Shown: positions 5,179 through 24,710 of the stretch, piece by piece | How the letters are laid out: each line of letters starts with the position of its first letter | Position numbering within the stretch: the stretch's first letter is position 1 | Origin: an uncultured Pelagibacteraceae bacterium | GTDB lineage: Bacteria > Pseudomonadota > Alphaproteobacteria > Pelagibacterales > Pelagibacteraceae | Reading direction: 5' to 3' | Assembly: GCA_902583635.1 (NCBI GenBank) | Contig: CACHWJ010000007.1 | Location: forward strand, 1 to 38,841 | Length of the DNA stretch: 38,841 bases | The notes under the pieces: model-generated | The model's input: the letters and a program-made list of their open reading frames with translations, nothing else | The model's database searches: none | What the model was told of the DNA's origin: nothing | Translations under genes and position numbers: made by a program

Positions 5179-5182
5179 TTAA

Positions 5183-6541
5183 ATGAGTAATAAACTACTG
5201 AATATAAAAAATATATTAATAATTATGATATATTTTTTTCCTCTATCTATATTAGCTGGACCTTTTGTAATAAATCTAAATTTAATAATATGCAGTATAC
5301 TATTTTTAATTTATCTTTTAAAAAATAATGAATTAAAGAGTTTTTTTTCTATCGAATTAATATTTCTTTTTCTATTTATTTTAATTAATATTTTACTAGA
5401 TTTAATTTTGGAAAGACCAAACTCATATAAATCTATAGGGCTTTTAAGATTTTTGTTGTTTGGTTTATGCATTAATTATTATTTTTCAAATAATTTAATT
5501 AATAGAGTTAATTATCAAAAATATATATTACTGATTATTCTTTTTGTTTGTATAGATGCAACAATACAATATATTTTTGGGGTAAACGTAGTTGGAATTA
5601 AAAAAGAGGCAAATTATATCTCAGGTTTTTTTGGCGATGAAAAAATTTTAGGCTCATATATATCTAAAATAATTATTTTTTCTTTACCTTTTTTAATACA
5701 TGAAACTAATCTAAAAAAAAAATTTTTATATTTCTTTGTATTTTTAATAATTTTGCTAACTACCGAAAGAATAGGTTTATTTATATTTATAACCTCAACA
5801 GGAATTCTGTTTCTGTTTTCAAATTATAATATTAAAAAAAAAATCCTGGTTTGTCTTATTGGATTAAGTATTTTATCAACATCTTTAATTTTATTTGAAA
5901 GTTTAAGAGTTAATTACTTGTATAAAACTCTTCATCAGTTTGGATTTGAAAACCTTAACAAAAAGATAATATTATTGGTTAACAATAAAACATTTTTTTC
6001 TGGATGTGATAAATTTAAAATTGATAGTCAGTCATGTGCTGAACAAAGATATGATAATATAAAAAGACAATTAGGTTTACAGGAAACAAGCACTGTAAAG
6101 AACTACGGAATATTTAGTCAAAATCATATCGCTCATATTCTCGTTGGCATTAAAATTTGGAATGATAATAAATATTTTGGCATAGGAGTAAACAATTTTG
6201 GAGATGCTAGCTGGGGAAACGAATATGAACTTGATAACAAATTTCTTAATACTATCAAAGCATCAACTCATCCCCATAACCTTTACATTCAAGTTTTAAC
6301 TGAAACTGGATTAATTGGTATGATATTATTTTTTTCGTCTATAATTATTATTGTGCTGAAGAGATTAAAAAAAATCATATTGATCAAAGAAAATTATCTG
6401 CAGAATTTAGCTTTTTTGACAATTTTGGTAATTTTTATGCTTCCTATTCCAACTGGAAATGTATTTGGAACTTCGCACGGAGTATTTTTTTGGACTTACT
6501 TATTAATGAATATAAATTTAAAGATAATAAAGATTAATTAA
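5183..6541 (+). CDS. O-antigen ligase / polymerase family membrane protein (WaaL-like)
   Basis: A 452-residue membrane protein with about ten to twelve hydrophobic segments and one large periplasmic loop (about 240-365). At the end of that loop is HPHNLYIQ (363-370) followed by TETGLIG, the signature of the Wzy_C/WaaL family. TTERIGL near 193-199 fits the conserved Arg region. WaaL joins undecaprenyl-pyrophosphate-linked O-antigen to lipid A core in the periplasm; Wzy polymerases share the fold and motif. With an ABC-type exporter in the window a ligase is more likely than a polymerase. It sits four bases after the gmhA-like gene and eight before the heptose fusion gene, so it is probably co-transcribed. 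The loop contains two cysteines (275, 285) that could form a disulfide. Confidence 0.8.
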   Translation: MSNKLLNIKNILIIMIYFFPLSILAGPFVINLNLIICSILFLIYLLKNNELKSFFSIELIFLFLFILINILLDLILERPNSYKSIGLLRFLLFGLCINYYFSNNLINRVNYQKYILLIILFVCIDATIQYIFGVNVVGIKKEANYISGFFGDEKILGSYISKIIIFSLPFLIHETNLKKKFLYFFVFLIILLTTERIGLFIFITSTGILFLFSNYNIKKKILVCLIGLSILSTSLILFESLRVNYLYKTLHQFGFENLNKKIILLVNNKTFFSGCDKFKIDSQSCAEQRYDNIKRQLGLQETSTVKNYGIFSQNHIAHILVGIKIWNDNKYFGIGVNNFGDASWGNEYELDNKFLNTIKASTHPHNLYIQVLTETGLIGMILFFSSIIIIVLKRLKKIILIKENYLQNLAFLTILVIFMLPIPTGNVFGTSHGVFFWTYLLMNINLKIIKIN

Positions 6542-6549
6542 AATATAAA

Positions 6550-7680
6550 ATGATTTTAGTAATTCTTGCTGGTGGCAAAGGCTTAAGGCTTAGACCCTTA
6601 ACTAATAATATTCCAAAACCAATGGTGGAAATTAATAAAAGACCTTTTTTAGAAAAGCTAATATTAAATTTCTCAAAATATAACTTAAAAAAGATATTTA
6701 TCTTAACAGGTTACAAATATCAAAAAATTCATTCAGTGTTTGATAAGAAATTTTATAATGGAGTAGAAATAATTTGTATTAATGAAAGAAAAATCATGGG
6801 TACAGGCGGTGCACTATACCAATTAAAAGACAAGATTAAAGGTAATTTTTTTTTAATAAATGGAGATACTTTCTTGGATATAGACTTAAACAATTTATTT
6901 TCAAAAATAAATAAAAAAAAAATTATTAATATGTTTCTAACAAAGAAAAACATAAATGACAATGATACTTTAAATCTTGATAATAAAAAAAATATAATTT
7001 ACGACAAAAAAAGTATTTATATTTCAAGTGGTCTTTATTTTTTTAATTCCAGATTTTTAAAGACAATTGAAAATAAACCTTCATCACTTGAAAAAGATAT
7101 TCTTCCAATTTTTATTAAAAAAAAAAAAATTACTGGACATATTATTTCAAGTTTATTTATAGATATTGGAACTAAACACGATTTAGGTAAATTTAAAAAG
7201 CTGGATGCAAAGCTAAAGAAAGCAATTTTTTTAGATAGAGATGGAGTAATAAATTATGACAAAGGCTACACTTATAAAATTAAAGATTTCAAGTTTAAAT
7301 CAAAAATTTTAAATTTTATAAAAAAATATAAAGACAATTACATTTTTTTTATTGTAACAAATCAGTCTGGAATTGGACGTGGTTATTATTCCATAAAAGA
7401 TTTTTTTTTATTACATCAACATATTAAATTAAAACTATACCAAAAAAATATAATGATCAGTGATTTAGAATTTTGCCCTCATTACGAAAAATCTAAAATT
7501 AAAAAATTTAAAGTTATTTGTAAATGTAGAAAGCCAAATAACTTGATGTTTAAAAACTTAAAAAAAAGATGGAATATTAATTTAAAAGAAAGTTTTATGA
7601 TTGGAGATAGCAAAAAGGATGAATTATTTGCAAAAAATTCTAAAATTAAGTTTAAATATTATTCTTCAATAAAAATTTAA
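6550..7680 (+). CDS. Bifunctional heptose-1-phosphate nucleotidyltransferase / heptose bisphosphate phosphatase (HddC-GmhB fusion)
   Basis: Two enzymes in one 376-residue chain. Residues 1 to about 213 are a sugar nucleotidyltransferase: LAGGKGLRLRPLT (6-18), PKPMVEI (22-28), NGDTFLD (104-110). Residues 224-376 are a HAD phosphatase of the GmhB type: FLDRDGVIN (227-235), VTNQSGIGRGYY (269-280), a zinc site from C309, H311, C324 and C326, and IGDSKKDE (351-358). GmhB removes the 7-phosphate from heptose 1,7-bisphosphate; HddC then adds GMP to the 1-phosphate. GTP preference is inferred from the pathway. The linker is very short. Codons 190-193 are an uninterrupted A13 tract (7117-7129), a likely slippage hot spot. 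Its end overlaps the convergent hddA by four bases. Confidence 0.88.
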   Translation: MILVILAGGKGLRLRPLTNNIPKPMVEINKRPFLEKLILNFSKYNLKKIFILTGYKYQKIHSVFDKKFYNGVEIICINERKIMGTGGALYQLKDKIKGNFFLINGDTFLDIDLNNLFSKINKKKIINMFLTKKNINDNDTLNLDNKKNIIYDKKSIYISSGLYFFNSRFLKTIENKPSSLEKDILPIFIKKKKITGHIISSLFIDIGTKHDLGKFKKLDAKLKKAIFLDRDGVINYDKGYTYKIKDFKFKSKILNFIKKYKDNYIFFIVTNQSGIGRGYYSIKDFFLLHQHIKLKLYQKNIMISDLEFCPHYEKSKIKKFKVICKCRKPNNLMFKNLKKRWNINLKESFMIGDSKKDELFAKNSKIKFKYYSSIKI

Positions 7681-8675
7681 ATTTGGTTATTATAAATTAC
7701 TTTTGTTCCATCTCTGTCTAGATCAAAATTTACAAGCTTTATCTTATTTATTTGATCTATTAACTTTTTTTTTTCTCTCATATTTTTAGATAAAAAGATA
7801 AAAAAACCTCCTCCTCCAGCTCCTAAGATTTTGCCTCCTATAGCTCCTGACCTCAAACCTTTTTCATATAAGTCGTCTATTTTTGAATTTGTTACTTTTT
7901 TTGATAAATTTTTCTTTAAATTCCATTGATCCCTTAAAAGTTCACCAATATGATTCAAATTTAAGGCATCTTTTTTTTTAAACAACTTTTTTGCCTCAAT
8001 ACATAAATCAAATAACTCCTCATAAATTGGATACTTTTTATGCATACTTTTAACTTTATCTAATTCTATTTTTTTTGCATTTCTAGTGAACCCTAGAAAA
8101 AATAAACTGCAGTGCTCTTTAAAAAAATTAATATTACTCAGATCTGTAAATTGAGTTATTTTAATATTTTTTTTTTTAAAACTAATAAAATTAGTTCCTC
8201 CTATTGCTGTTGTAATTTGATCTTGAGAACCAACACCAGCTCCATCAATTATACGCTCAATTTTTAATGTTTCTTTCCATAGAAGGCTATTAGACATTTT
8301 TTTATTTTTTAAAAAATATAATGATTTCAATAATCCATTTGTGAATGCAGAACTTGATCCCAGACCGCTTCGAGCTGGTAGATCTGCATTGTGGATAATT
8401 TCTAATCCTTTACTTTCATTATAAAACTTTTTGAGAATAGATTTAACTATTGGATGCTCAATTTTTTTAATACTATTTTTTTCCTCATTTTTAAAATATC
8501 TAATCCTAAATTTATGGTCATAAAATTTTTCTAAAAATCTAATATTTATATAAGAATACTTATTTATTGCAGAAGCTATAACTGCACCTTCCCGATTATT
8601 ATTCTCATACCATTTAGGTAAATCTGTTCCACCGCCAAAATATGAAATTCTAAGTGGTGATCTAACAATAATCAT
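7677..8675 (-). CDS. hddA: D-glycero-alpha-D-manno-heptose 7-phosphate kinase (HddA)
   Basis: GHMP-superfamily kinase of 332 residues. It phosphorylates heptose 7-phosphate at C1 to give the bisphosphate used by GmhB. The N-terminus has RSPLRISYFGGGTDLP (5-20), characteristic of HddA. The ATP loop is DLPARSGLGSSSAF (98-111), GAGVGSQDQ (145-153) follows, and the C-terminal GHMP motif is GAIGGKILGAGGGGFFIF. It is last in the minus-strand run that begins at 14963, and its ATG shares a base with the upstream stop codon (TAATG), suggesting translational coupling. Its partner enzymes lie on the opposite strand, so the heptose pathway is split between two convergent transcripts. The fucose/heptose kinase relative FKP is an alternative, but the neighbours favour HddA. 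Confidence 0.9.
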   Translation of the reverse strand: MIIVRSPLRISYFGGGTDLPKWYENNNREGAVIASAINKYSYINIRFLEKFYDHKFRIRYFKNEEKNSIKKIEHPIVKSILKKFYNESKGLEIIHNADLPARSGLGSSSAFTNGLLKSLYFLKNKKMSNSLLWKETLKIERIIDGAGVGSQDQITTAIGGTNFISFKKKNIKITQFTDLSNINFFKEHCSLFFLGFTRNAKKIELDKVKSMHKKYPIYEELFDLCIEAKKLFKKKDALNLNHIGELLRDQWNLKKNLSKKVTNSKIDDLYEKGLRSGAIGGKILGAGGGGFFIFLSKNMREKKKLIDQINKIKLVNFDLDRDGTKVIYNNQI

Positions 8676-10342
8676 TACTTCTTAATAATATCAGAATTTC
8701 GTAAAAACTGATCAATAATTAGATTAAAGTTTTGATCTTGTTTGATTTTATTTTTATTATTCACAATATTGGAAACATATCTAGGGTATCTGTATTTGAA
8801 TTTTTTAATTAAGTTTACTTTTATCATTTTTTTAAAAAAGTAAAAATAAGCAAATTGTAAAGCTTTATCAATTTTGGTTTTTTGAACTTTTTTTGCTTTT
8901 TTAAAATTCATATTAAGAAAATTTAAGTAATCTTTTTTATTTTTAGGATCAAAGGTAATATTTTTATTTTTTATCCAAGCTTCACCACAACAAATAACTG
9001 GGATACCCATGGCAGCAAATTCAATAGACATCTTGCTAGAATAAACAATTGCAAAATTACAATTTTTTGCAATTTTATAAGTATTTATTTTGGAAAAGGA
9101 ATTAATTAATTTAATATTATCTGGGATTTTACCAAATTTACTTAAAATATAATCTTCAACACTAAATGATGTGGGGACATTACCTAAAAATTCTCCTGGA
9201 TGTGTCCTTATAATTAATTTCTTATTTGAATTTTGAATAAAATATTCGATTGTATAATCAATTAATTCAAACATATCTTTAAAAATACTTTTTTTAAAAT
9301 GTAGCTTTGCATCCCAATCAACATTTAAAGCTAAAAGATAATTTCCTTTAGTATTTTTTTCCAAAAAGTCATTTAAGCTTTTATCTAGAGATTTTCCAGA
9401 TTGAAAATTTATCCAGCCCTCATTTCCACTTATCCTTTGATTTAAATAATTTTTAATTTTAGTTTTTTGTTTTTTATTAAGTAAATGATTTCTCCAAGTT
9501 CTATTTTCAGGAAAAAAATTATGAACATTTTTATTTTTGGTTACTATCAATGAATTTTGTCTATAACCAGGTTGCCATACATAAAAAGGTATTTTTTGTT
9601 TTTTGCTAATAAGTGGAATTATTCCTTGAGGAATATAAATCCCATGATGAGTTATGATTTTAGTAATTTTTTTTTGTCTTAAAATTCTTTTAAAAGCAAG
9701 AAAAAACAAAATAGCAGATTTGAAATACTCTTTATATATTATTAAATCTTCAGACCTGTTAATATTTTCATTTGATGTACCTTTAAATCTTATAAAACCA
9801 CTAAATACATGCTCATTTAAAAATGAGAATTTTCCATTAAAACTTTTTATATTCTTAATATTGATTTTTTTAACATAATTATTAGCCAAAATTAAATCTT
9901 TTGAATTAATAAAACTTTTTAAAGAAATTACATCTTTGATATCTTTTGGAAAATCCGATTCAAATCCTTTGTTACAAAAATTGCATATATTTGCCTGTGC
10001 TGAAGCAATGTTATCTTCTACTAATGTCTTAGTAAAAAAAGTATAATTTGAGGCGTTACACAAATTTAAACTTTTTGAGCACTTCAATATAAAAGTATTT
10101 TTATTTTTAATTTTTAAGTAAACATAAAATAAGTAATCAAACATACGAATTATGTAATTATCCCCAGACAATGTACAAATTAATATTGATTGGCTGTTTT
10201 TATTTTTATTTGAATGTGGATAACTAAGATTTGAAGATTTTTTTGAGGAAATATATTTATTTTTTAAGTTTCTCAAAAAAAGTAGTTTTTTTTTTGAATT
10301 TAAATACCCAAAGTATTTTTTTAATTGTAAAGAATTAAACAT
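8675..10342 (-). CDS. Capsule-synthesis (KpsS/KpsC-like) glycosyltransferase with four-cysteine motif
   Basis: A 555-residue soluble protein, clearly paralogous to the product of 16991-18676. Shared blocks include HHGIYIPQG (232-240), a W-D-A-K-L-H segment (343-348), IIRTHPGEF (377-385) and AAMGIPVICCGEAWIKNK nearer the C-terminus. The HPxE and GEAWI blocks fit the Capsule_synth group (KpsS/KpsC/LipB-like), whose known members use CMP-Kdo. It directly follows, and overlaps by eight bases, a CMP-sugar synthetase gene, so a CMP-nonulosonate donor is a reasonable inference. Four cysteines (C88-x6-C95, then C120-x2-C123) recur with the same spacing in the paralogue, suggesting a metal or Fe-S site. 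Codon use is AT-rich like its neighbours. Glycosyltransferase is likely; donor and acceptor are unknown. Confidence 0.7.
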   Translation of the reverse strand: MFNSLQLKKYFGYLNSKKKLLFLRNLKNKYISSKKSSNLSYPHSNKNKNSQSILICTLSGDNYIIRMFDYLFYVYLKIKNKNTFILKCSKSLNLCNASNYTFFTKTLVEDNIASAQANICNFCNKGFESDFPKDIKDVISLKSFINSKDLILANNYVKKINIKNIKSFNGKFSFLNEHVFSGFIRFKGTSNENINRSEDLIIYKEYFKSAILFFLAFKRILRQKKITKIITHHGIYIPQGIIPLISKKQKIPFYVWQPGYRQNSLIVTKNKNVHNFFPENRTWRNHLLNKKQKTKIKNYLNQRISGNEGWINFQSGKSLDKSLNDFLEKNTKGNYLLALNVDWDAKLHFKKSIFKDMFELIDYTIEYFIQNSNKKLIIRTHPGEFLGNVPTSFSVEDYILSKFGKIPDNIKLINSFSKINTYKIAKNCNFAIVYSSKMSIEFAAMGIPVICCGEAWIKNKNITFDPKNKKDYLNFLNMNFKKAKKVQKTKIDKALQFAYFYFFKKMIKVNLIKKFKYRYPRYVSNIVNNKNKIKQDQNFNLIIDQFLRNSDIIKK

Positions 10343-12555: not shown

Positions 12556-12605
12556 ATTTTTAGCTTATATAATTTTCATAAAATTAAAATAATATTTTAA
12601 ATTAA

Positions 12606-13829
12606 TTATGTAAAAACCTTATCATAAGAATGAAAAGACTCTTTTCTTAATTCATTATTGATATCAATATCAGTAAAATCTTCATTGTTTAAATTTTTAA
12701 AAATTTTTATTATATCATCAACAGAATTATATTCGTAAATAATTTTATTTAAATGATGTGGAAATCTTTTTGATAATTTCGTAGGTAAAATTAATTTGTT
12801 TTGAGTATAAAAGGCCTCTAGGCTTTTGTTTTTAAAACCATAACCTTTGTCTGAAAAAAACATACTAGCACTGCTTTTACCTAATAGTGAGTAGAACGAA
12901 TTATAATTTTTTTCATTTAAAAGATTAAAACTTTTTAAAGGTTCTGAATTTAAAATTTCGTCTAATATACTCTCTCTTTTTATAAAGTTTACAATTAAAT
13001 CTCTGTCTATAAAAATAAAGAAATTTTTGTATTCATTTATTTTTTTTCTTTTTAAATACTCTAAAACTCCATTTGGAACAGTACCAGTTACAATGAATTT
13101 TATTTCATCAAAGGCTTGCCCCATTTTTTCTTTAATTCTTGGTAATAAATCACCAATTTTTACAATTTGATCTACTGAAATTGGATTAGGATGACTGGAA
13201 CCTGAAATAGTTATAATTTTTTCGTCTTTAATTTTATCTACATCCTTTATGTGTTTAATATACTTGCCTGATAAATAAGGTGTTGCTGTTAGAGCTTTAT
13301 TTTTAGAAAGATATTTCCAATAATTTTCAGTTTCCCACTCACAATTTGTGAGAATTTTTTTTGCAAAAAGGGATGTTAATAAATCTCTAAAAAAAAATCT
13401 AATTATGTGGGATGGATAAATTATAAAAGTTACGTAAAAGATAACCAATATACCTTTGATTGAATTTTTTTTATTTTTAAAAAGTATTCCTGATAGAAAA
13501 TGATTAAGGTTACATATAAAAATATGAATTCTGTGATAAAATTCAGCATTATGAGATCTATAAATAATTTTGCCAAATTTAAAAAAGAGATAAAATTGTA
13601 TTAGTAAATTTGGTGAGTGCTCTATTATAATATTAGAATAATTTTTTGAATTTATATACTTAACTTTTTTTCTAACATCTGTGAAATTCATATTCATTTC
13701 AATTCTGTCTACTAGATATTTTTTTTTATCGAAATACTCTATTCTAGAATTAATATCTTTGTTACTTCCTAGATAAAAAAATTTTTTATTACTTATTTTT
13801 TTTGATGTTAAGTGAAGTATTGGTAGCAT
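12606..13829 (-). CDS. Probable GT-B glycosyltransferase (GT4-like)
   Basis: A 407-residue protein with features of a GT-B glycosyltransferase. The N-terminal half has IIEHSPNLL and IIYRSHNAEFYHR, and LTNCEWETENYW near the domain boundary. The C-terminal half has TISGSSHPNP and DKGYGFKNKSLEAFYTQNKLI, where a Gly-x-Gly/Glu block stands in the nucleotide-sugar site as in GT4 enzymes. Hydrophobic residues around 110-160 suggest membrane association. The canonical E-x7-E motif is only partly visible, so the family is tentative. Its start abuts the stop of the ABC-like gene (13830), so the two are very likely co-transcribed and perhaps coupled. It probably adds one sugar to the exported polysaccharide. 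Confidence 0.6.
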   Translation of the reverse strand: MLPILHLTSKKISNKKFFYLGSNKDINSRIEYFDKKKYLVDRIEMNMNFTDVRKKVKYINSKNYSNIIIEHSPNLLIQFYLFFKFGKIIYRSHNAEFYHRIHIFICNLNHFLSGILFKNKKNSIKGILVIFYVTFIIYPSHIIRFFFRDLLTSLFAKKILTNCEWETENYWKYLSKNKALTATPYLSGKYIKHIKDVDKIKDEKIITISGSSHPNPISVDQIVKIGDLLPRIKEKMGQAFDEIKFIVTGTVPNGVLEYLKRKKINEYKNFFIFIDRDLIVNFIKRESILDEILNSEPLKSFNLLNEKNYNSFYSLLGKSSASMFFSDKGYGFKNKSLEAFYTQNKLILPTKLSKRFPHHLNKIIYEYNSVDDIIKIFKNLNNEDFTDIDINNELRKESFHSYDKVFT

Positions 13830-14963
13830 CTAACTTGCATTAAATATGAACTCTGGTTTTATTAAAGATCTATTTACTGATCTTAAAGATCCAAAAAATT
13901 TTATTCTAGCCAATAGAAAATTTTCCATTATTCTAAATGTTTTTCCTTGGTTTCTTTCGTTGAGATTTTCTACTTTAATACTTAATAAGAACTCATATAT
14001 ATCATCAACAAAAATATTTGGTACTTTTATTTCAACATTTACCTCATTATGATCATTAATTTTTATCCATTTAGCACTGGTCTGAGAAATAATATTTTTT
14101 CCTTTCGCTCTTATGTTTAAACCAAATTTAAAAGTAAAATCTGAAAATAATTTACTTGATAATTTAAGTTTAATTTTAAATTCTTCAAAATTATTTTTTA
14201 CATGAAAACCATTTGAAACATTAGTAAAATCAATATTTAAATTGTTTAAATATTTTAAAAGATTATTAGACTCTATGATTTGTTTATTATCTTTAATAAA
14301 AAGTTCATTTATATCTTCTTGAAATTTATTTCTAGACTTACAATGGATGTTCTCTAAATCGTTAAAATCAATGAATTTGGTAAAAATGTTATTATTTAAA
14401 TTTTTATATTTAAAGTCTAAAAATAAAATTTTAGATTTCGATAACTGTTCGACTTTATCAATTATTTTGTTTTCAAATGTCAAATCAGTATCTAATGCTA
14501 TCTCTGACAGTATGTAGATGTCATAATTTAGATATAATGGTAAGGAATAAATAATTTTAGATATTTGACCAGTTGAATACCTTTCTAAAGGTTTTTGATC
14601 GTCAATATTAAATTCTAAAAATGTAATTAACTCATTATAATTTCTGTGAATATTCTTTATATCTAAAGTATCTTCAATAAAAAACTTTATAAAATTTTCA
14701 AATACACTTTGTTCAAAATCAAATCTTTTTTTTAATGAATAATAATTTATAATTTTGTAATCCAGGATAAATTCATTATTTTCAATATATTTTTCACCAG
14801 AAATAATTTCATAAAAGTGTCTATGTATTTTATTAAAATTTGGGTTTTTTAAGACGTTTACAACATTGGGTTTTTCTATTTTCATATTTTTAACTTTGAA
14901 ATCATCATTTATACGATAATTATCTTTTAAAATACTTGAGTTAATATTTTTTATTAAAATCAT
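13830..14963 (-). CDS. Walker-A-less ABC ATPase-like subunit with Wzt-type C-terminal domain
   Basis: A 377-residue protein that looks at first like an orphan but aligns with Wzt ATPases. ERYSTGQISKIIYSLPLYL (127-145) matches the ABC signature (usually YSSGM followed by R/K and aliphatics). YDIYILSE (147-154) is a Walker B with Asp changed to Ser and the Glu kept, and a D-loop-like DTDL follows at 158-161. Where Walker A should be (about 39-48, just before HFYEIISG) there is no GxxGxGK[ST] at all, and no H-loop histidine follows Walker B. Residues from about 250 form a beta-rich Wzt-like cargo domain. It is divergent, by 47 bases, from a complete-looking ABC ATPase whose signature motif is itself degenerate. 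The two probably form a heterodimer with one active ATP site. First gene of the minus-strand operon. Confidence 0.65.
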   Translation of the reverse strand: MILIKNINSSILKDNYRINDDFKVKNMKIEKPNVVNVLKNPNFNKIHRHFYEIISGEKYIENNEFILDYKIINYYSLKKRFDFEQSVFENFIKFFIEDTLDIKNIHRNYNELITFLEFNIDDQKPLERYSTGQISKIIYSLPLYLNYDIYILSEIALDTDLTFENKIIDKVEQLSKSKILFLDFKYKNLNNNIFTKFIDFNDLENIHCKSRNKFQEDINELFIKDNKQIIESNNLLKYLNNLNIDFTNVSNGFHVKNNFEEFKIKLKLSSKLFSDFTFKFGLNIRAKGKNIISQTSAKWIKINDHNEVNVEIKVPNIFVDDIYEFLLSIKVENLNERNQGKTFRIMENFLLARIKFFGSLRSVNRSLIKPEFIFNAS

Positions 14964-15010
14964 AAAAATAAGATAATATTAGATATATTAAATAAAACAC
15001 AATCTTTTTT
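14964..15010. promoter_or_regulatory. Divergent promoter region between the two ABC subunit genes
   Basis: These 47 A/T-rich bases separate the starts of the two ATPase-like genes, so both arms of the export and biosynthesis block must start here. On the minus strand a TTGTGT and a TAATAT stand 15 bases apart, a poor but possible -35/-10 pair. Nothing firm on the plus strand. Shared control of both arms is inferred from the layout. Confidence 0.35.
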
Positions 15011-16171
15011 ATGAAAGAATTATCTTTGCAAATAAAAAATGTAAATAAATATTACGTTGAGAAAAAAGAATTAAGCTTAAAAGAAATTTTACTATTAAAG
15101 AAATTTAGAAAAAGAGAAAAAAAAACATTGGTGCTTAAAAATATAAACATAAGTTTTAAAAGTGGAAAAATATACGGTGTAATAGGTAAAAATGGTGCAG
15201 GAAAATCAACTTTGTTAAAAATAATATCAGGTGTGGAAAATATTTCTGAGGGACAAATTAAAGCTGAAAAATGCAATATTTTTCCATTACTTGAACAAGG
15301 AGATTTTTTTGAAAATGATTTAACTATCCGTGAGAATATTAATTATGCACTTTATTTTCAAAATATAACAAACAAAAAAAAAATTGATAAAATAATTAAT
15401 AAAATAGTAAGATTTTTAAATATTGATGAAAAAATACTAAATCAACTTACAAAGAATATTAGTAAAAATGATTATGCAAAAATAGTATTTAGTCTTTCAA
15501 TTTTTTCAAAGTCAAATGTTTTACTTATAGATGAAATATTTAATTTGATAGACTTAAATTATAAGAAAAAATTTTTTAAAATTATTAAAAGAATTAAAAG
15601 GGACAAAATTATCATTTGTGTTTCTCATGATATAGGTACACATTATGAGATCAGTGACGAAATATTGTGGATGGAAAATGGATCAATTTTTAAAAACTTA
15701 GATAAGAATGAGAATCTGAGTAAGTATTTTTTAGATGTTGCTGTTCAAAGGGGTTTTAAAAGAATGTTTTTGACAAATAAACAAAATAATGAGAAGCATT
15801 TTTTCCAATCAGATGAAAATATATTAATTAAATTTGATTTTGACGCAAATTTTTTTACAAATGAAATTTCAAATGATTTTTTTTTCGAAATGACTTTATC
15901 TACTGAAAATTTTCAGGTATGCTCTTTTAAAAAAAAAATTGGATTAAAAGAAATTTTAAATAAACACTTTTTTTTCAAAATTAATTCTTATACCCTTGCC
16001 CAAAGAAAATATTTTTTATCTTGTAAGATATTTAATGATAAAGATATTGTGATAAATAATTTTGAAACAACTTTTGAAATATTTCATATAAATAGAACTG
16101 ATTTAAATACATATGACCACCTAGGGGCAATGATTTCTCCAAAATTATTTTTTTATGATAGTAGACAATAA
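15011..16171 (+). CDS. Polysaccharide ABC transporter ATP-binding protein (Wzt/KpsT family)
   Basis: A 386-residue ATPase of the O-antigen/capsule exporter family, with an extended Wzt-like C-terminal cargo domain (about 255-386). Walker A is GKNGAGKST (59-67), the Q-loop glutamine is Q96 in LLEQGD, Walker B is VLLIDE (170-175) and the H-loop is VSHD with H206. The signature motif, normally YSSGM or LSGGQ, reads ISKND (150-154): its glycine is Asn. A homodimer would therefore lack a normal signature in both sites. The divergent partner at 13830-14963 has the signature but no Walker A, so the two are complementary. The gene overlaps the permease gene by 17 bases. It is cytosolic and docks on the permease, energising export of the finished glycan. 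Confidence 0.88.
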   Translation: MKELSLQIKNVNKYYVEKKELSLKEILLLKKFRKREKKTLVLKNINISFKSGKIYGVIGKNGAGKSTLLKIISGVENISEGQIKAEKCNIFPLLEQGDFFENDLTIRENINYALYFQNITNKKKIDKIINKIVRFLNIDEKILNQLTKNISKNDYAKIVFSLSIFSKSNVLLIDEIFNLIDLNYKKKFFKIIKRIKRDKIIICVSHDIGTHYEISDEILWMENGSIFKNLDKNENLSKYFLDVAVQRGFKRMFLTNKQNNEKHFFQSDENILIKFDFDANFFTNEISNDFFFEMTLSTENFQVCSFKKKIGLKEILNKHFFFKINSYTLAQRKYFLSCKIFNDKDIVINNFETTFEIFHINRTDLNTYDHLGAMISPKLFFYDSRQ

Positions 16172-16991
16172 TTTTTTTAACATTAAAAATCAAATTACTT
16201 TATCTATAGATAAAATTAATTTAGTAAGTTTATTTTTTAAAAATACAATCTTATTATTAACTAGAAGAACGTTGTTGGGAAATTTGTGGTTAATTATTAA
16301 ACCTGCTTTTCCATTAGCAACATTCACTATAGTTTTTGGTTTTTTTTTTGAGTTGAATAGTAGTGAGACACCTTATTTAATAATGCTCACAAGTGCTTAT
16401 GTTTGTTGGGCAGTTTTTGATGATACACTCTATTGGACAACAAGGACATTTGAGGCAAATAAGAAAATTCAAAAAAAAATAAGTCTTCCTTTCCTTCTCT
16501 TACCATTAGGGTCTTCTTTTGTGGGTTTGGTAATGATGTTTGTAAGCCTGTTTTTTTTAATATCAGCATTATTTTATTACGTATTTTTTGAAAATTACTC
16601 TTTAAACTTTGGCATTTTGAACTTACTGATGTTTCTATTAAGTGTTTTAATTGTATATTTATTAGCTTTAGGAATAGGACTTTTCACCAGTATTTTAAAT
16701 GCTAAATTTAGAGATACAAAATTTTCAGTCAAAATTATTTTATCAGGTATAATGTATCTTACCCCAGTAATGTATCCAATAGATAAAATTCCTGAATCAT
16801 TTCAGTCTTTATATTTTTTTATAAACCCGATAGCAGCCCCTGTAATTACTAGTAAGTATTCTATTACTAATAATATGGAAAATATTCCTTACGAATATTT
16901 AATTTATAGTTTTATTATTTCACTAATATTTATTTTTATAGGTTTTTATTTTTACATGAGAAACATTAAAAATGGCTTAACAATTAATTAA
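16155..16991 (+). CDS. Polysaccharide ABC transporter permease (Wzm/KpsM, ABC-2 type)
   Basis: A 278-residue ABC-2 permease with about six hydrophobic segments. The N-terminal amphipathic stretch and GNLWLIIKPAFPL match the family region (LGxLWxxxxP), and FRDTKFSVKIIL followed by YLTPVMYPIDKIPE is the classic Wzm/TagG/KpsM C-terminal block. It forms the membrane channel for polysaccharide linked to undecaprenyl pyrophosphate. It overlaps the ATPase gene by 17 bases and the following KpsS-like gene by one (TAATG), so all three are surely one transcript. Only one permease gene is present, so the pore would be a homodimer even if the ATPase pair is a heterodimer. Confidence 0.9.
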   Translation: MIVDNNFFNIKNQITLSIDKINLVSLFFKNTILLLTRRTLLGNLWLIIKPAFPLATFTIVFGFFFELNSSETPYLIMLTSAYVCWAVFDDTLYWTTRTFEANKKIQKKISLPFLLLPLGSSFVGLVMMFVSLFFLISALFYYVFFENYSLNFGILNLLMFLLSVLIVYLLALGIGLFTSILNAKFRDTKFSVKIILSGIMYLTPVMYPIDKIPESFQSLYFFINPIAAPVITSKYSITNNMENIPYEYLIYSFIISLIFIFIGFYFYMRNIKNGLTIN

Positions 16992-18676
16992 TGGATCAAT
17001 TAGATAAAATTCTTACAGAGAATAGAAAAAAATTTAAATTTGATAAAAAAAAAAATATTCTTTTTGCAACCGGGTTTTCTGGATATAACCATGGAGCTAT
17101 AATTGATAAGCTAATTTCCTCATCTCTACTCTTTAGAGGCTACAGCGTTGAATTTTTTCTATGTGATAAATTTTTATCAACATGTATGTTAACAAAAATT
17201 AAGCAAATTGATCCACAAAAACTCAGTGAAGTTAAAGAACAGCCAAGATGTGAAAATTGTTTCAAAATGGGTTTGGAGTATCTGAAAAATCTTCCAATCA
17301 AAAAAAATTATTTTTCTGAATTTGTCTCTCAAAATGAGATAAATAAAATAGAACAAATAGTAAACTCAACTAATTTAGAACATTTAAAAGATTTTAAATA
17401 TAATGAAATAAATACCGGTGAAGAAGCTTTAGCTGGAGCGTTGAGGTATTTTGGAAAAGAGAAAATTGATGACGAAAAGTTCAAACTACAGATATTAAAA
17501 AAATTTCTTTATTCAGCACTTAAAACCCAAATCTCATTTCAAAATTTAGTTAATGCAAATAATTATGATGTAGTCGTATATTCTCATGGAATTTATGTAC
17601 CTCATGGTATTATTAATCAAATCCTTAAAAAAAAAAATATAAGATCTGTAGTTTATATTCCTAGCTATAGAAAAAATACTTTTATATTTTCGCATAACGA
17701 CACCTATCATAAAACAATGATATCTGAACCAAATGAAAAGTGGGTAACTTTAAATTTAGATAGTAAAAAAAGATCACTCATAAAAGGATACTTAGAGAGT
17801 AGAAAGACTGGGGAGAACGATTGGATATGGTTTAATAAAGATAATAATTTTGACTTCAATAAAATCTGTAACGAATTTTCTATAAATAAAAATAAAAAAA
17901 TTGTTACTTTATTAACAAATGTAGTTTGGGATGCAAAACTTCATTACAAATCAAATGCTTTTGAAAGTATGTTTGATTGGATATCGGAGACCATTAATTT
18001 CTACTCAAGTAAAAAAGATACTGAATTAATTATACGTGTTCATCCAGCAGAAATAACTGGAGACGTACCCTCGAGACAAAAAGTTCAAGATGAGTTAAAA
18101 AATATCTTTAAAATATTGCCTGAAAATGTAAAGATTATTCCTCCATCATCCTCTGCTAGTACTTACACTATGTTAGAAAAGTCTAATTTAGTTTTAATTT
18201 ATAACACCAAAACAGGAATAGAAGCTGCTGCTATGGGGAAAAAAGTAATAGTTGCAGGTGAAGCTTGGATTAGAAATAAAGGATTTTCGTGGGATGCAGA
18301 GTCTAAAGAGAATTACTTATCTATATTAAATTCTATAGATATGAATGAAAATTTAGATCAAGAAAAAAAAGAAAGAGCTTTGAAATATGCTTATCATGTT
18401 TTTTTTAGAAGAATGATTGAAATTTCTTCTATAAAAATAAATTATCTTAAAAATAATAAGTTTACTACAGATATAAATAATATTTCTGATTTGTTGCCAA
18501 ATTCAAACTACCAACTAGATTTATTGATAGATGGAATCATAAATAAAAAAGATTTTATTAATGAAAATGAAAAAATAATTTTAAATAAAAAAAACAATAA
18601 AATTTCAATAACATTTCAAAGAATATTATTAAGTACTTTAAATTTAGTAAAAAGATTAAGATTTAAGTTTATATAA
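16991..18676 (+). CDS. Second capsule-synthesis (KpsS/KpsC-like) glycosyltransferase with four-cysteine motif
   Basis: A 561-residue soluble protein, paralogue of the product of 8675-10342. Shared blocks: SHGIYVPHG (198-206), VVWDAKLHYKS, LIIRVHPAEITGDVPS, AAMGKKVIVAGEAWIRNKGF. The four-cysteine pattern is also kept (C58-x6-C65, then C87-x2-C90). HPxE and GEAWI place it near the KpsS/KpsC/LipB Capsule_synth group. It ends the exporter transcript, while its paralogue sits in the divergent biosynthetic arm. The two may add different linkages of the same or related CMP-activated sugars. Its last 21 bases overlap the end of the convergent oxidoreductase gene. Glycosyltransferase role likely, donor unknown. 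Confidence 0.7.
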   Translation: MDQLDKILTENRKKFKFDKKKNILFATGFSGYNHGAIIDKLISSSLLFRGYSVEFFLCDKFLSTCMLTKIKQIDPQKLSEVKEQPRCENCFKMGLEYLKNLPIKKNYFSEFVSQNEINKIEQIVNSTNLEHLKDFKYNEINTGEEALAGALRYFGKEKIDDEKFKLQILKKFLYSALKTQISFQNLVNANNYDVVVYSHGIYVPHGIINQILKKKNIRSVVYIPSYRKNTFIFSHNDTYHKTMISEPNEKWVTLNLDSKKRSLIKGYLESRKTGENDWIWFNKDNNFDFNKICNEFSINKNKKIVTLLTNVVWDAKLHYKSNAFESMFDWISETINFYSSKKDTELIIRVHPAEITGDVPSRQKVQDELKNIFKILPENVKIIPPSSSASTYTMLEKSNLVLIYNTKTGIEAAAMGKKVIVAGEAWIRNKGFSWDAESKENYLSILNSIDMNENLDQEKKERALKYAYHVFFRRMIEISSIKINYLKNNKFTTDINNISDLLPNSNYQLDLLIDGIINKKDFINENEKIILNKKNNKISITFQRILLSTLNLVKRLRFKFI

Positions 18677-19609
18677 ATTTTCTATTAAGGTTGCTACTTT
18701 ATGGTAAGAAGTAAAATTTTTTAATTTTTCACCTTCAATTATCTTATTTATATTTTTTTTAAGATAATATTTTATAAAGTAATCATAAATCATTAATGAA
18801 TTCGAGTTATAACTTTTAGATTTTATATTATCCTTTATCAAAAAAATTTCACCACTTTTTTGCCATATGTAACTTTCATCTAAACCTTTAAATTCTATTT
18901 GTAAAGGACTTGAAACAAATTCATCGCTTAAAAACCACGACATTTTAAAATTGATAATTATATTTGACTTAGTTTTTAAATTTAAATCAATACTTTTTTC
19001 TATTTTATTGTCAAAGTTATTAAATTTAATATCAATTATATTTATATCTTCATCCAATAAATAATTTAATAAATCAATTGCGTGAATTCCCCAATCAATT
19101 AATATCCCCCCACCTGAAATATCTAAATTAAGACTCCAATTATTCTTAGGCTTAAAATCTTTTATCCATTTTACTCTTATTGATTGAATTTTTTTATTTT
19201 TAATATCTTTTATAAAATTTGTATTTTTTTGATATCTTAAATTAAATCCACCAAATATTATTGGATAATTATTTGGAAATTTTTTTTTGATATATTGAAA
19301 ATCATTTGAAGAAATCATTACTGGTTTTTCAACAAAAACTGGTTTATTTAATTTTAGAAACTCTTCTATTTGGTTTTTGTGATATTTGTTGGGGCTAGTG
19401 ATTAATCCAAAATCAAATTGAATATTTTTTAGATATTCTAGATTGTTTATAAAATTAAATTTACGAAAAAAATCATTTTTTATTGAGTTAGGTGAATAGA
19501 CTGACGCTATTTTATGACCCATTGAGAGTAATATTTTGCAGTGTTTTTCTGCTATTTTGCCAGGACCAACTACTACAAAATTGTATTTTTTTTTAAATAA
19601 ATTAAACAA
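18656..19609 (-). CDS. Gfo/Idh/MocA-family sugar oxidoreductase
   Basis: A 317-residue NAD(P)-dependent oxidoreductase. The Rossmann motif is VVVGPGKIAEKH (12-23). The catalytic-lysine motif is FVEKPVM near 95, and GGGILIDWGIHAIDLLNYL holds the usual C-terminal-domain His region. The family oxidises or reduces ring hydroxyls of nucleotide sugars and related cyclitols. It is last of a long minus-strand series and abuts the radical SAM gene upstream with no gap, so the two are probably coupled in one pathway. Substrate cannot be deduced. Its 3' end overlaps the convergent KpsS-like gene by 21 bases. Confidence 0.82.
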   Translation of the reverse strand: MFNLFKKKYNFVVVGPGKIAEKHCKILLSMGHKIASVYSPNSIKNDFFRKFNFINNLEYLKNIQFDFGLITSPNKYHKNQIEEFLKLNKPVFVEKPVMISSNDFQYIKKKFPNNYPIIFGGFNLRYQKNTNFIKDIKNKKIQSIRVKWIKDFKPKNNWSLNLDISGGGILIDWGIHAIDLLNYLLDEDINIIDIKFNNFDNKIEKSIDLNLKTKSNIIINFKMSWFLSDEFVSSPLQIEFKGLDESYIWQKSGEIFLIKDNIKSKSYNSNSLMIYDYFIKYYLKKNINKIIEGEKLKNFTSYHKVATLIENLYKLKS

Positions 19610-20737
19610 TTAAAAATTTGAACTTTTTTTTGTTTTAAATAATCTTGAGCACTTAGAGAGAACTCCGGGGTTACCGTTTTCATCTAAAAATTTTCTCCAT
19701 TTTTTTGCTTTCATGCTATTCCACAAATCTGTAATTTTTTCTTCTTTTATATTTCCAAATTTTAAATCTGGATAATCTCCACAATTAACAACATCTCCAT
19801 TTGGCTGAATAGCCATTGAGTTAAAACAAACACATTTTCTCTCTTTTGGATAATAAGACGGTACTTTAAAGAACATTTCCAGTTCGTTTAAATCAGTAGG
19901 ACCCAAATAACATGTCCTTGGCTGAGTAAGAAGCCAAGTTATATCCTCATGTAATTTTGTAATATTGATCTTTTGACATTCCTTGACAAATGTCTCATCA
20001 GAAAAATTACCTAGATATGACATGCAGTTAGTTTGAAATTCTTTTTCCATAATTTCAAAATAATCTATTCCCATTTTTTTGTCTGCAAACCGTGGCGCAT
20101 GAAATTTTATCTCATCAATTTCAGGAAATTTATTAATATAAAATTCATAATAATCTCTCATAGTTTTGTAATTATCTGGAGTAATTGTGAAATGTATTTT
20201 TAAAAGTGGATGTTTGATTTTTCTTTTTTTCTTTTCTTCAATTAAAATTTCAAGACCATCTAATGCTTTCTGCCACGATCCTTTTAATCCTCTTATTTCA
20301 TCATGCAAATCTGGGGTATAACCATCAAGTGATACTGATATCATATGTGGTGGATCATCTAAAATATGGTTAACATATTTTTTTAAAAGCAATCCATTGG
20401 TTGAATAAGAAAATTGTATTTTTTTTTTATTTAAAAAATTCGAAAGTTTAAAAATATCCTTGTAAACTAATGGTTCACCTCCAAAAAGATATGCTGTTTT
20501 CAATGGCTTTTCTAATTCATTTATTCTTTTTTCTAAAACCTCTAAATTTACTTTTGTCCAATCATCCTGACTATTTGGTGCTCCCTCAGGAGCATTAACT
20601 TGCCCACACATTTTGCATGACAATTGACATTGATAAGTTAAAGTAATTATTAAATGTTTAAGTCTATACTGATCTGTATCTAATATATTTTCTGCGTTAT
20701 TAAAAATTTTATTTTTTATATAATTGATAATTTGCAT
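19610..20737 (-). CDS. Radical SAM / SPASM protein A
   Basis: A 375-residue radical SAM enzyme. The [4Fe-4S] triad is C37-x3-C41-x2-C44 (CQLSCKMCG), followed by a GGEPL motif (AYLFGGEPLVY) and SVSLDG. The C-terminal part has CVCFNSMAIQPNGDVVNCGD, FGNIKEEKITDLWNS and a last CSRLF, the SPASM pattern for extra Fe-S clusters. SPASM enzymes are best known for peptide maturation, but members also act on carbohydrates. Here it lies between a B12-type radical SAM gene (two bases upstream) and a Gfo/Idh/MocA gene (adjoining), with no peptide substrate gene nearby, so sugar modification is inferred. Reaction unknown. Confidence 0.82.
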   Translation of the reverse strand: MQIINYIKNKIFNNAENILDTDQYRLKHLIITLTYQCQLSCKMCGQVNAPEGAPNSQDDWTKVNLEVLEKRINELEKPLKTAYLFGGEPLVYKDIFKLSNFLNKKKIQFSYSTNGLLLKKYVNHILDDPPHMISVSLDGYTPDLHDEIRGLKGSWQKALDGLEILIEEKKKRKIKHPLLKIHFTITPDNYKTMRDYYEFYINKFPEIDEIKFHAPRFADKKMGIDYFEIMEKEFQTNCMSYLGNFSDETFVKECQKINITKLHEDITWLLTQPRTCYLGPTDLNELEMFFKVPSYYPKERKCVCFNSMAIQPNGDVVNCGDYPDLKFGNIKEEKITDLWNSMKAKKWRKFLDENGNPGVLSKCSRLFKTKKSSNF

Positions 20738-20739
20738 TT

Positions 20740-22077
20740 TTAATTTTTGAATTGAAATATTTTAATATAACCACTTAAATAATCTATAAACCAATTAAAT
20801 CTAAAATAATACTTTTGGTAACATTCCTCAAGAAAAGATTTAACTATAAACTTGTCTAAAATATCATGTTTGTAAACCAAATGATACTGAGTAAAATTTT
20901 CGTAATTTTTTGTTAAAATTTTATCTTTAAATTCTTTAAATACTGGAGTTGAAGGATACGGGGTCCAAATGCTGAATTGAGCATAAGTAGTATTAAGCTT
21001 AATGGCATAATTTAATGTATTTTTCATACTGTCTTTTGTATCAGATGGAAAACCAATGATATACATTGCAGATATTGCAATGTTTTTTGATTTAATTTCT
21101 TTAATTTTTTCTAATTGATCATCTCTACTTACTGTAAATCTTCCCTCTTTCTTTAAAAGTTCTGTGTCAAAATTTTCAACTCCTACTTTAACACCAATCA
21201 AACCACTTTTCTTTAGAAGGTCTAACAATTCTGAATCTAAAATTCTTAAATGTGTTTCAATAACAAATTTAAAATTAATTTTTTTCTCAATTATTTTTTT
21301 ACAAAATTCTATTGTATGATTTCTGTTAATAGAAAATACAGGGTCTCTAAATATAAATGTCTTAACTTTATTAAATTTTAAGTTGTGTTCTATTTCTGAT
21401 ATAATATTTTCAACAGATCTTTGGTTGACTTTCCTTCCCTGTTGCAAAGGATATACGCAATATTTAAAACATGAGTATGGACATCCTCTGGTAGCAAGTA
21501 TTGGTATTGAACGTCCATATCCAAACAAATTATTTATTTTATTTAAATTTGAAATCTCAGACCACTCAATTATTGGAAGATCATCTAAATTTTCTAAAAA
21601 AAATTCATCTGTTTCTTGCTTATTTATATCATTTAAAAATTCAGATTTTAAAAAATAAAACTCTGGTTGTCCTTTAACAATAATCACATTTTTCATCATG
21701 TAGTAATCAGGATTATTTGATGCAAAGGGTCCAATTACAAAAATTGGTTTATCTATTTGACTCAATTGTTTTAATTGATCCCTTTCATAATTACATGCAG
21801 CAATAGAAGATGTAAAAATTATTACTTTATAATCATTTATATTTTTAGGAATAGAATTAGAGAAACTAACATCATAATTTCTCTTTTTTAAACAAGCGTA
21901 AGTGTAAGCAGCAAACATGGGAGGCCAATCACTATTTCGTCTCATTAAATATTTTAACATTCTGGGGATAAACTTTTTACTACCAAAATCATTTCCAGTT
22001 CCATAACCACCACTCGTATCTTTTGAAATTCTATAAGAGGTTTTGGGATAGAGATCTAAAATTAAAATTTTTTCCAT
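20740..22077 (-). CDS. B12-binding-type (class B-like) radical SAM protein with CX3CX3C cluster motif
   Basis: A 445-residue protein with a Rossmann-like N-terminal domain (about 1-145) and a radical SAM barrel (about 190-400), the layout of cobalamin-dependent radical SAM enzymes. No clear DxHxxG cobalamin-ligand motif is seen, so B12 binding is not assured. The cluster motif RGCPYSCFKYCVYP has C199-x3-C203-x3-C207, one residue longer than the canonical CX3CX2C; I checked this against the bases. Later blocks include IFRDPVFSINR, KVGVENFD and YIIGFPSDT, typical of this group. It overlaps the GT2 gene upstream by 16 bases and lies two bases before radical SAM A. Probably modifies a sugar or lipid-linked sugar (for example C-methylation); inference. 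Confidence 0.8.
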   Translation of the reverse strand: MEKILILDLYPKTSYRISKDTSGGYGTGNDFGSKKFIPRMLKYLMRRNSDWPPMFAAYTYACLKKRNYDVSFSNSIPKNINDYKVIIFTSSIAACNYERDQLKQLSQIDKPIFVIGPFASNNPDYYMMKNVIIVKGQPEFYFLKSEFLNDINKQETDEFFLENLDDLPIIEWSEISNLNKINNLFGYGRSIPILATRGCPYSCFKYCVYPLQQGRKVNQRSVENIISEIEHNLKFNKVKTFIFRDPVFSINRNHTIEFCKKIIEKKINFKFVIETHLRILDSELLDLLKKSGLIGVKVGVENFDTELLKKEGRFTVSRDDQLEKIKEIKSKNIAISAMYIIGFPSDTKDSMKNTLNYAIKLNTTYAQFSIWTPYPSTPVFKEFKDKILTKNYENFTQYHLVYKHDILDKFIVKSFLEECYQKYYFRFNWFIDYLSGYIKIFQFKN

Positions 22078-22802: not shown

Positions 22803-24710
22803 TTAAAGATTAAAAAAACTCCTAAAAAATAAATATGGTGGTAGAATTTTATGAAGAGTTTTCTCATATTCTTTAAACTTTTTATCGTGACTTTCGTTTA
22901 AACACAAGTGAGCCTCAGTAAAATACAATAAATATTTTTTTTTACAAATTTTATCATTTGGTCCAATTTTATTTACTTTTATTTTTTTGTTAGTAATAGC
23001 AAAATTAGTGATGCGATCTATACTGAATAATACTGTTTCCCAATTAGATAAATAAATATTAATTTCGTCATTTTTATCCAGATTGGTGTAATAAAATTTT
23101 ACTTGCTCTCTGAGCAAAATTTGTGTTGTAACAATTGTTGAAATATTTAAAGCTGAAACTATTAAAACATTTATTGATAAAATTATTCCAATAATAAAGC
23201 CAAGTAAATTAAAATTTTTTGAAAGTAGTGAAATCATAATGAGCAAAGGTATAATCCAAACAAATGGAAAATATCTATAGAAAATTGGATATGGAAAAAT
23301 TAAAATTACCAAAAATATAATAAGACATAAAATTTCAATAAAATATTCTTCAATTTTTCTTTGTTTTAAGCTAATTTTTTTAAAAAAAATAAAAAGAATA
23401 GAACTTAAAAAGGCCAAACCAAATAATGGCCCAGCGGCTGCAATCATAGGCGTGGCAACAGCAACGTAGTATCTTAACTCATGTTTTTTTATTGTAAAAA
23501 GTCTCTCTAAATTATCAGCTCTTTTTGCTTGAAAATACTCAAAATCATCTTTTGATGCTTTAAGGAAAAGTGATTTTATAAATATAGAAATTGGATTTGT
23601 GTTGTTAACATATATATTTCTTGGGTCAGTTGGAGGAGTAAACGGGGTTACAAACTCTTTTTCAAAACAGGGTGGCAAGGGATTATTATTAATTTTTTTT
23701 TGTATTATTTCCTGATAAATAAAATTTTTGGCTGTTGGTGTATAAGAAAAAAGGAATAAAGCTGAAATAGGTAATAGCACTACTAAAACTAAAATTTTTT
23801 TTTCTTTGAATTTTTGAAACAATATAAACGAAAATACTAAAAAAAAAGTAATTGCAAAAAAGAAAAAGTTCATTTTTGGAGATGAGAATATACACACACT
23901 CATTAAAAATAAAAAAAAGTTTATCTCTTTGAATTTAATGTTGGTGTAAAGAAGAATGAAATAATAAATGGCAAAAATAAAAAAATAATAACCATATATA
24001 TCTTTGTAAGCATTAAATAGTTGATTAAAAATAATTGGATTAAAAATTATTAACAAGGTAATCCAATATTTGAATTTTTTTACACCTGATATCCTTAAAA
24101 TTTCTAAAATAGGGAAGATAGTAGCTAATAAAATTAATATTTTTCCTGCTTTAAAAACATCAACAGAAGTTTCATTTGTAATATTATAAAAATAATTTTC
24201 AAAAAAATGGATTGAATGTGATGCATACTGATGCGATGCACTTGGTAAAATAAAAAACTTTGTAAAATCTAAATTTCTTTCACCAATTAAAGAACCACAA
24301 AAATCATAAAATGGATTATAACCATTTGCCAAATAGTAAGAAATTTTTAATTGATAACTTAATCCATCTGGTGTTAATTCAAGAATTTTTTCAGCAAAAG
24401 TGCATGATAATAATACAAAAAATAAATAAAAAATAAAATAAATTATAATTTTAAAAAAATTAAATTTTTTAGTTGAGTAAAAAATTATTACTAAAGGTAA
24501 AATAGATATAAAAATATAAAAAAACCTGTAAAATTTAAAATTTTCAAATGTTATATTTAAGAAAAAAAAAATTGATGTTAAAAAAATAACAAAAAAAATT
24601 AAATTCAGTGTGTATAGGTGAAAGAAATTAAAGAAATTTGCAACAAAATCTTTATTAAAATTTTTGGATACTAATGCAGTATATTTAAACACTAATGAAT
24701 TAAAAGTCAT
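22803..24710 (-). CDS. Large GT-C-like integral membrane protein 1
   Basis: A 635-residue membrane protein with about eleven to thirteen hydrophobic segments. A first extracytoplasmic loop after the early helices has the acidic stretch ELTPDGLSYQLKISYYLANG, resembling the Asp-bearing loop of GT-C glycosyltransferases that use polyprenyl-phosphate sugars. A hydrophilic stretch (about 330-400) and a small C-terminal tail follow. No named family was recognised. It overlaps the next membrane protein gene by four bases (ATGA) and precedes the GT2 gene by 21, so it is a plausible user of the GT2 product. O-antigen polymerase or a non-enzymatic membrane protein are alternatives. Confidence 0.6.
   Translation of the reverse strand: MTFNSLVFKYTALVSKNFNKDFVANFFNFFHLYTLNLIFFVIFLTSIFFFLNITFENFKFYRFFYIFISILPLVIIFYSTKKFNFFKIIIYFIFYLFFVLLSCTFAEKILELTPDGLSYQLKISYYLANGYNPFYDFCGSLIGERNLDFTKFFILPSASHQYASHSIHFFENYFYNITNETSVDVFKAGKILILLATIFPILEILRISGVKKFKYWITLLIIFNPIIFNQLFNAYKDIYGYYFFIFAIYYFILLYTNIKFKEINFFLFLMSVCIFSSPKMNFFFFAITFFLVFSFILFQKFKEKKILVLVVLLPISALFLFSYTPTAKNFIYQEIIQKKINNNPLPPCFEKEFVTPFTPPTDPRNIYVNNTNPISIFIKSLFLKASKDDFEYFQAKRADNLERLFTIKKHELRYYVAVATPMIAAAGPLFGLAFLSSILFIFFKKISLKQRKIEEYFIEILCLIIFLVILIFPYPIFYRYFPFVWIIPLLIMISLLSKNFNLLGFIIGIILSINVLIVSALNISTIVTTQILLREQVKFYYTNLDKNDEINIYLSNWETVLFSIDRITNFAITNKKIKVNKIGPNDKICKKKYLLYFTEAHLCLNESHDKKFKEYEKTLHKILPPYLFFRSFFNL

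Follow-up and report, generated by a model that had tools for sequence, protein, structure and literature searches.

Reciprocal motif losses in two divergent genes of the Wzt type suggest an asymmetric glycan exporter

In ABC dimers, each ATP is bound between the Walker A motif of one NBD and the signature motif of the other. The ATPases of KpsMT and TarGH/TagGH are homodimers with complete motifs. BmrCD is a heterodimeric exporter whose two subunits differ and one of whose ATP sites is degenerate. The Wzm/Wzt O-antigen exporter of Aquifex aeolicus (PDB 7k2t/8dku), a type V ABC exporter, draws both of its NBDs from one Wzt. A single O-antigen site, formed by the CBD dimer together with one NBD, is described for this transporter (PMC9445017). 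As a system with a single O-antigen site is already asymmetric, a relative of it could tolerate, or even profit from, two unequal halves. Both the role of a degenerate ATP site and the need for ATP at both sites are treated in PMC7756269 as questions that are still open. Here we describe a locus that differs from that of Aquifex in having two genes with reciprocal losses.

The window, by which we mean the whole stretch of DNA analysed, is one complete contig of 38,841 bp with a GC content of 19-27% in 2-kb steps, and it belongs to a genome of 984 kb in 42 contigs that is 82.2% complete. The low GC content and the small genome point to a SAR11-type alphaproteobacterium as the probable source. 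P1 (13830-14963, reverse strand, 377 aa) is identified by sequence profile, phmmer and model as a pseudo-NBD of the Wzt type with a C-terminal domain, and P2 (15011-16171, forward strand, 386 aa) is identified by Pfam, phmmer and model as a Wzt-type ATPase; both ORFs were confirmed at these coordinates. The two genes diverge from a gap of 47 bp (14964-15010), and the ATG of a 407-aa gene of no assigned family (12606-13829, reverse strand, placed by ORF position) follows immediately after the P1 stop codon, so that P1 and P2 are the first genes of two opposite transcription units. The 407-aa gene and P1 probably share one of these units. On the other side, the end of P2 overlaps by 17 bases the start of a gene (16155-16991, forward strand) whose product is assigned as a Wzm-type permease by its match to the ABC2_membrane family in Pfam and to Aquifex Wzm (E 1.5e-6). 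The end of the permease gene in turn overlaps by 1 base the start of a gene for a 561-aa Capsule_synth protein (PF05159 by Pfam; 16991-18676, forward strand), which probably acts as a glycan enzyme within the export unit of P2 and Wzm. A promoter scan of 14800-15200 returned 2 matches, against a shuffle mean of 3.6, and 0 inside the 47-bp gap.

P2 matches ABC_tran in Pfam (E 6.7e-18) and, by phmmer against PDB sequences, Aquifex Wzt (E 6.7e-27) as well as TagH/TarH and KpsT. A low-confidence model divides it into an NBD (residues roughly 5-240) and a C-terminal domain (roughly 270-386). The Walker A motif GKNGAGKST (residues 59-67; 15185-15211, forward strand, from sequence) is complete and standard, as are Walker B, VLLIDE (residues 170-175; 15518-15535), and the H-loop, VSHD (residues 204-207; 15620-15631), which like the signature were located on the forward strand by sequence and motif score. 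The signature position reads ISKND (residues 150-154; 15458-15472) and is degenerate. All four of these motifs had been named in an earlier reading made from the sequence only, and all were verified in the translation. By its NBD sequence and the three standard motifs, P2 is classed as a Wzt-type ABC ATPase, one whose signature departs from the usual Ser and Gly.

As a reference we used 41 'Wzt-type' proteins, a label of this analysis for the 50 distinct proteins from the fetched loci that matched P2 (E ≤ 1e-15) less nine of other ABC types, which were removed by hand. Every one of the 41 has the Walker A Lys and S/T, the signature Ser and Gly, the Walker B Asp-Glu and the H-loop His, and the P-loop is present in 50/50 of the distinct proteins matching P2. 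A profile built from the 41 NBDs, with P1 and P2 excluded from the build, gave P2 a score of 176.5 bits. Among 525 ORFs of at least 150 codons in the fetched loci, window copies excluded, 92/92 matches to this NBD profile have the P-loop, overlapping loci counting more than once.

Similarity is far lower for P1, for which the search of Pfam returned no significant match. Against PDB sequences, however, phmmer matched P1 to Aquifex Wzt (E 3.3e-6), to TagH (E 3.9e-5) and to TarH. The NBD profile scored P1 at 36.1 bits, against 8.8 for the best shuffle (5,000 shuffles of residues 1-210, 4,667 of them reported), and the best of 30 other proteins of the window reached 4.2 bits. This profile replaced an earlier Wzt profile that included C-terminal parts, under which composition bias was large and P1 scored 18.2 bits, the best of 2000 shuffles reaching 8.2. 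The E value of 3.3e-6 and the score of 36.1 bits rule out that P1 is an ORF devoid of ABC ancestry, and the ABC similarity on which the sequence-only reading of P1 depended is therefore present. These scores point, beyond chance, to a genuine though very divergent Wzt-type domain. The profile match spans residues 56-182, which hold the signature, the Walker B region and, as judged by homology, the helical half.

The motifs of P1, all on the reverse strand, are lost in part. The signature, YSTGQ (residues 129-133; 14565-14579, by alignment and motif score), is kept and ends in Q, whereas most Wzt have M there. At the Walker A position, KNPNFNKIHRH (residues 39-49; 14817-14849, by alignment and frame scan), the P-loop is gone: K45 aligns to the column of the Walker A lysine, but none of the glycines is present and no S/T comes next. 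At the Walker B position, IYILSE (residues 149-154; 14502-14519, by alignment), Asp is replaced by Ser and Glu is kept, and at the H-loop position, LDFK (residues 182-185; 14409-14420, by alignment and motif score), the His is lost. YSTGQ, YILSE (residues 150-154) and the lack of Walker A and of the H-loop His were thus read correctly from the sequence at the outset. Lacking Walker A and the H-loop, P1 is treated here as a pseudo-NBD descended from a Wzt and not as an ATPase. A search of all six frames of 12601-18700 found the P-loop pattern GxxxxGK[ST] only in P2 itself, which rules out a Walker A displaced into another frame by two frameshifts. The reading frame of P1 is open for 377 codons; its other five frames contain 17-66 stops.

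Structure prediction agrees with this assignment. An AF2 model of P1, of low confidence in its division into domains, places the pseudo-NBD at residues of roughly 25-200 and a strand-rich C-terminal domain at roughly 205-377. The middle of the NBD is modelled well, with block means of 84-94 over residues 71-150, and the model is poor after residue 221, where pLDDT is mostly below 50. Searched with the P1 model, Foldseek returned full-length Aquifex Wzt as its best match (E 5.6e-15). VIA gave Z 20.7 and an rmsd of 3.5 over 220 residues against 7k2t_A; its leading matches were Wzt, TagH and KpsT, narrowly ahead of many other ABC proteins. As the AF2 models were built from alignments of other ABC proteins, the ABC fold is favoured from the start, and these fold matches are supporting and not independent.

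Set against the 41 Wzt-type proteins, the losses in P1 and P2 are complementary and specific to particular motifs, as the sequence-only reading had proposed for the two subunits. Walker A log-odds are -21.7 for P1 and 30.4 for P2 (lowest of the 41, 23.3), and H-loop log-odds are -12.8 and 15.8 (lowest 9.7). The signature scores run the other way, at 9.3 for P1 and -9.1 for P2 (lowest 10.3), P1 lying only slightly below the lowest of the reference set. Walker B scores are 4.8 for P1 and 16.7 for P2 (lowest 13.9). The D-loop, at 0.0 in P1 and 2.2 in P2, falls below all 41 in both proteins (lowest 2.7), and its aspartate is present in both. Since ATP sits between Walker A and the signature of the partner, P2 Walker A with P1 signature is the sole complete site that these two could form.

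We consider it fairly probable that P1, P2 and the single permease make up an asymmetric glycan exporter of composition Wzm2-P2-P1 with one composite ATP site. In such an exporter of two Wzm, one P2 and one P1, ATP would be bound by Walker A, Walker B and the H-loop of P2, and P1 would close over that ATP through YSTGQ and its D-loop aspartate. At the opposite site, composed of the P1 Walker A position and ISKND of P2, the usual binding or hydrolysis of ATP would not take place; as the P-loop of P1 is gone, this site probably holds no ATP. One ATP would then drive each closure, and P1 would still dock on the second Wzm by way of the half that keeps the signature. The sequences show that both proteins are NBDs of the Wzt type with reciprocal losses; that they form a heterodimer, share Wzm, have one working site and export a surface glycan is inferred. 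More tentatively, P1 could be an obligate signature donor, that is, an ATP-free NBD mimic on a subunit of its own, such that exactly one nucleotide would be used per cycle and the P1 half would be free for glycan recognition. The profile-matching part of P1 holds the signature, which counts for the exporter reading. The location of P1 outside the P2-Wzm operon and divergent from it counts against that reading, as does the scoring of both D-loops below the 41 Wzt.

Alternatively, P2 might work as a homodimer despite ISKND, with P1 acting as a separate regulator or as a glycan-binding NBD mimic. Such a role would suit a protein that is encoded in another transcription unit and that has its own strand-rich C-terminal part in the low-confidence model. 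However, the fourth position of the signature, Asn in P2, is Gly in 41/41 Wzt-type proteins, and the motif missing from P2 is exactly the one that P1 keeps, which makes this alternative quite unlikely. Both C-terminal domains show, at most, a weak similarity to the Wzt CBD. A 28-row Wzt CBD profile gave 6.2 bits with the C-terminus of P2, a score matched by 5/1000 shuffles, and 0.9 bits with that of P1, matched by 122/1000. Profile comparison of the C-terminal parts of P1 and P2 with each other and with Wzt CBDs returned nothing, and a search of the genome with the PF14524 (Wzt_C) profile, which gave a match in 4 of 14 controls, returned none.

A search of the genome with P2 returned 22 ABC places, P2 included. 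Among the 21 others, 20 were classified by NCBIfam as UgpC/PotA/ProV-type and other importers, urea/branched-chain-type, LptB-like, LolD-like, MsbA-like or an ABC-2 exporter ATPase, and none as Wzt; the remaining one is a 69-residue stretch on contig 26 outside the classified set. A normal Wzt just beside the locus, which the sequence-only reading had named as a finding that would speak against it, is absent there as well as from these 20. Only one permease in this 82.2%-complete genome exceeds the ABC2_membrane cut-off, and it is the Wzm that adjoins and overlaps P2, in line with the single permease gene first noted at the locus. A weaker permease adjoins an ABC-2 ATPase on contig 12, and no PF02563 exporter was found in the genome. 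About 18% of the genome, which is in 42 contigs, is absent, so that a normal Wzt encoded there might pair with Wzm and leave P1, P2 or both as accessory proteins; the short match on contig 26 would also leave room for one. With no other permease over the cut-off, no Wzt among the 20 classified matches and P2 overlapping the Wzm gene, we regard this as very unlikely.

The P1/P2 pair was found nowhere else in overlapping samples of 397, 399 and 398 genomes, in IMG/VR, in phages, in plasmids or in limited scans of GTDB. Among the 397 genomes of the order no P1 orthologue was found; the 4 other matches are three ordinary ABC proteins (two of Wzt/KpsT type) and one frame with six stops. IMG/VR and phages returned no P1, and plasmids returned one place, of 28% identity and annotated as an ABC transporter ATP-binding protein. 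Six short peptide patterns of P1, whose reach is close relatives only, were not found in GTDB contigs; the contig scans rely on short patterns, which distant relatives may escape. No P2 orthologue with ISKND was found in the 397, 399 and 398 genomes (thresholds 1e-18, 1e-18 and 1e-20). In IMG/VR, neither P2 nor a canonical Wzt query returned a match, and a Wzt alignment returned at least 18 loci, those listed being other ABC proteins; in GTDB, a search with an alignment returned at least 5 loci. Wzm has three weak relatives in three other genomes of the order sample and none in IMG/VR.

Within the phylum sample, ordinary Wzt relatives of P2 turn up often: the P2 search matched 57 other genomes, and 29 of their places became loci and had their motifs read. 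From the order and genus samples, the P1 or P2 searches brought up a Wzt-type ATPase in nine further genomes (G004, G017, G041, G091, G163, G376, G466, G473 and G496), and Walker A, the signature Ser and Gly, Walker B and the H-loop are kept in 9/9; distant KpsT-type ATPases fall below the P2 thresholds, and that of G041 was found by P1 alone. The Wzt of G473, which is of the same genus (L054, 1492-2229), has the signature LSSGN, a milder departure with Ser and Gly kept. The matches in G234 and G550 belong to a different type of exporter, and that in G110 is a frame full of stops. The P2 matches in the Wzt of L086 (G672) and L087 (G895) were reported with one and three internal TAA stops, respectively. 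The sequence-only reading had proposed a search for co-occurrence of the two genes. No orthologue of either turned up in another genome, whether alone or together with its partner. As the pair is known from one genome, conservation gives no support.

This restriction to one genome would also fit a decaying cassette, in which P1, once a Wzt, is shedding its motifs and P2 is likewise without its signature, leaving a non-functional or failing exporter in a surface-glycan island that is prone to change. In a quick tree P1 and P2, which share approximately 20% identity, are neighbours with a support of 80, and the end branch of P1 is extreme and saturated at 10 changes per column. Given this saturation, P1 is only a possible duplicate of P2; the saturated branch also fits decay, as does the scarcity of Wzm relatives (3 other genomes of the 397). 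Nevertheless, the frames of P1 and P2 are fully open in DNA of 20-21% GC, those of P2, Wzm and the PF05159 gene are open and overlapping, and the losses of each protein fall on a different half of one composite site. We therefore judge decay unlikely, and return to the asymmetric exporter as the preferred reading.

The region around P1 and P2 is a surface-glycan island. Its genes, named here by their best NCBIfam or Pfam match with most NCBIfam matches falling below curated cut-offs, include those for a GmhA-like isomerase, a fused HddC-like/GmhB-like protein, an HddA-like kinase, a NeuB-type synthase, a PseF-like cytidylyltransferase, glycosyltransferases and an O-antigen-ligase-like protein. 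The first three lie at 4588-8675 and likely make up a GDP-heptose pathway in which a single fused protein covers two of the steps. Four long proteins of 555, 635, 704 and 659 aa (8675-10342, 22803-24710, 24707-26821 and 30554-32533, respectively) have no match in Pfam (E 0.001) or NCBIfam (E 1e-5), and for the first, third and fourth the best E value against PDB sequences is only 0.12. Four radical-SAM proteins (19610-22077, 26868-27995 and 32540-33871) are encoded near MocA-type oxidoreductases and glycosyltransferases.

In family, P1, P2 and the permease resemble Wzm/Wzt of Aquifex, and P1 and P2 share with Wzt the order of an NBD followed by a C-terminal domain. KpsMT and TarGH/TagGH are also close: P2 matches TagH/TarH and KpsT by sequence and P1 matches TagH and TarH, the TagH and KpsT structures are matched by the models of both proteins, and the 561-aa neighbour of Wzm belongs to the capsule family PF05159. 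P1 and P2 depart from the complete motifs of the homodimeric ATPases in these systems. In the open-access literature searched we found no example of an asymmetric Wzm/Wzt exporter, or of a Wzm/Wzt system with an inactive or second ATPase. If the preferred reading is true, P1, P2 and Wzm would constitute an asymmetric Wzm/Wzt exporter.

Unequal NBDs are better known from elsewhere. ABCG5/G8, ABCB2/B3 (TAP), TM287/288 and BmrCD are transporters of other types than Wzm/Wzt. The first three, as described in PMC7756269, pair two distinct subunits and have a single degenerate site, as the proposed exporter of P1 and P2 would; the Walker A change in ABCG5/G8 is given there as Lys to Arg, by which the motif is not lost. 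ABCB5-beta, according to PMC11391348, has a truncated NBD that lacks Walker A and the A-loop and in this respect is like P1, but it is an isoform truncated from a human full transporter and not a separate gene with an oppositely degenerate partner. The sequence-only view that both Walker A motifs persist in known asymmetric exporters was accordingly too strong, as the accounts of these two proteins and of yeast Pdr5 (PMC8421411) indicate.

The closest parallel is Pdr5, a PDR full transporter with a deviant NBS1. Its non-catalytic site is reported to deviate in all conserved regions except the D-loop; NBD1 retains VSGGE, and NBD2 reads LNVEQ (PMC8421411). As in P1 and P2, the signature lies on one NBD and the catalytic motifs on the other, and in Pdr5 they form one catalytic composite site (PMC8421411). 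Pdr5 differs in being a single eukaryotic chain of another transporter type, whereas P1 and P2 would be halves encoded by separate genes. ATP is still bound at the degenerate site of Pdr5 and of the asymmetric exporters described in PMC7756269, whereas no P-loop can be recognised in P1. If the preferred reading holds, P1 would go beyond Pdr5 in having its P-loop erased and in being a gene of its own, and with one P-loop wholly gone and the halves on separate subunits, the question of a single site would become approachable by simple mixing of subunits. The one-site logic that the motifs of P1 and P2 suggest is already known from Pdr5; the erased P-loop and the split into two genes would be the new part.
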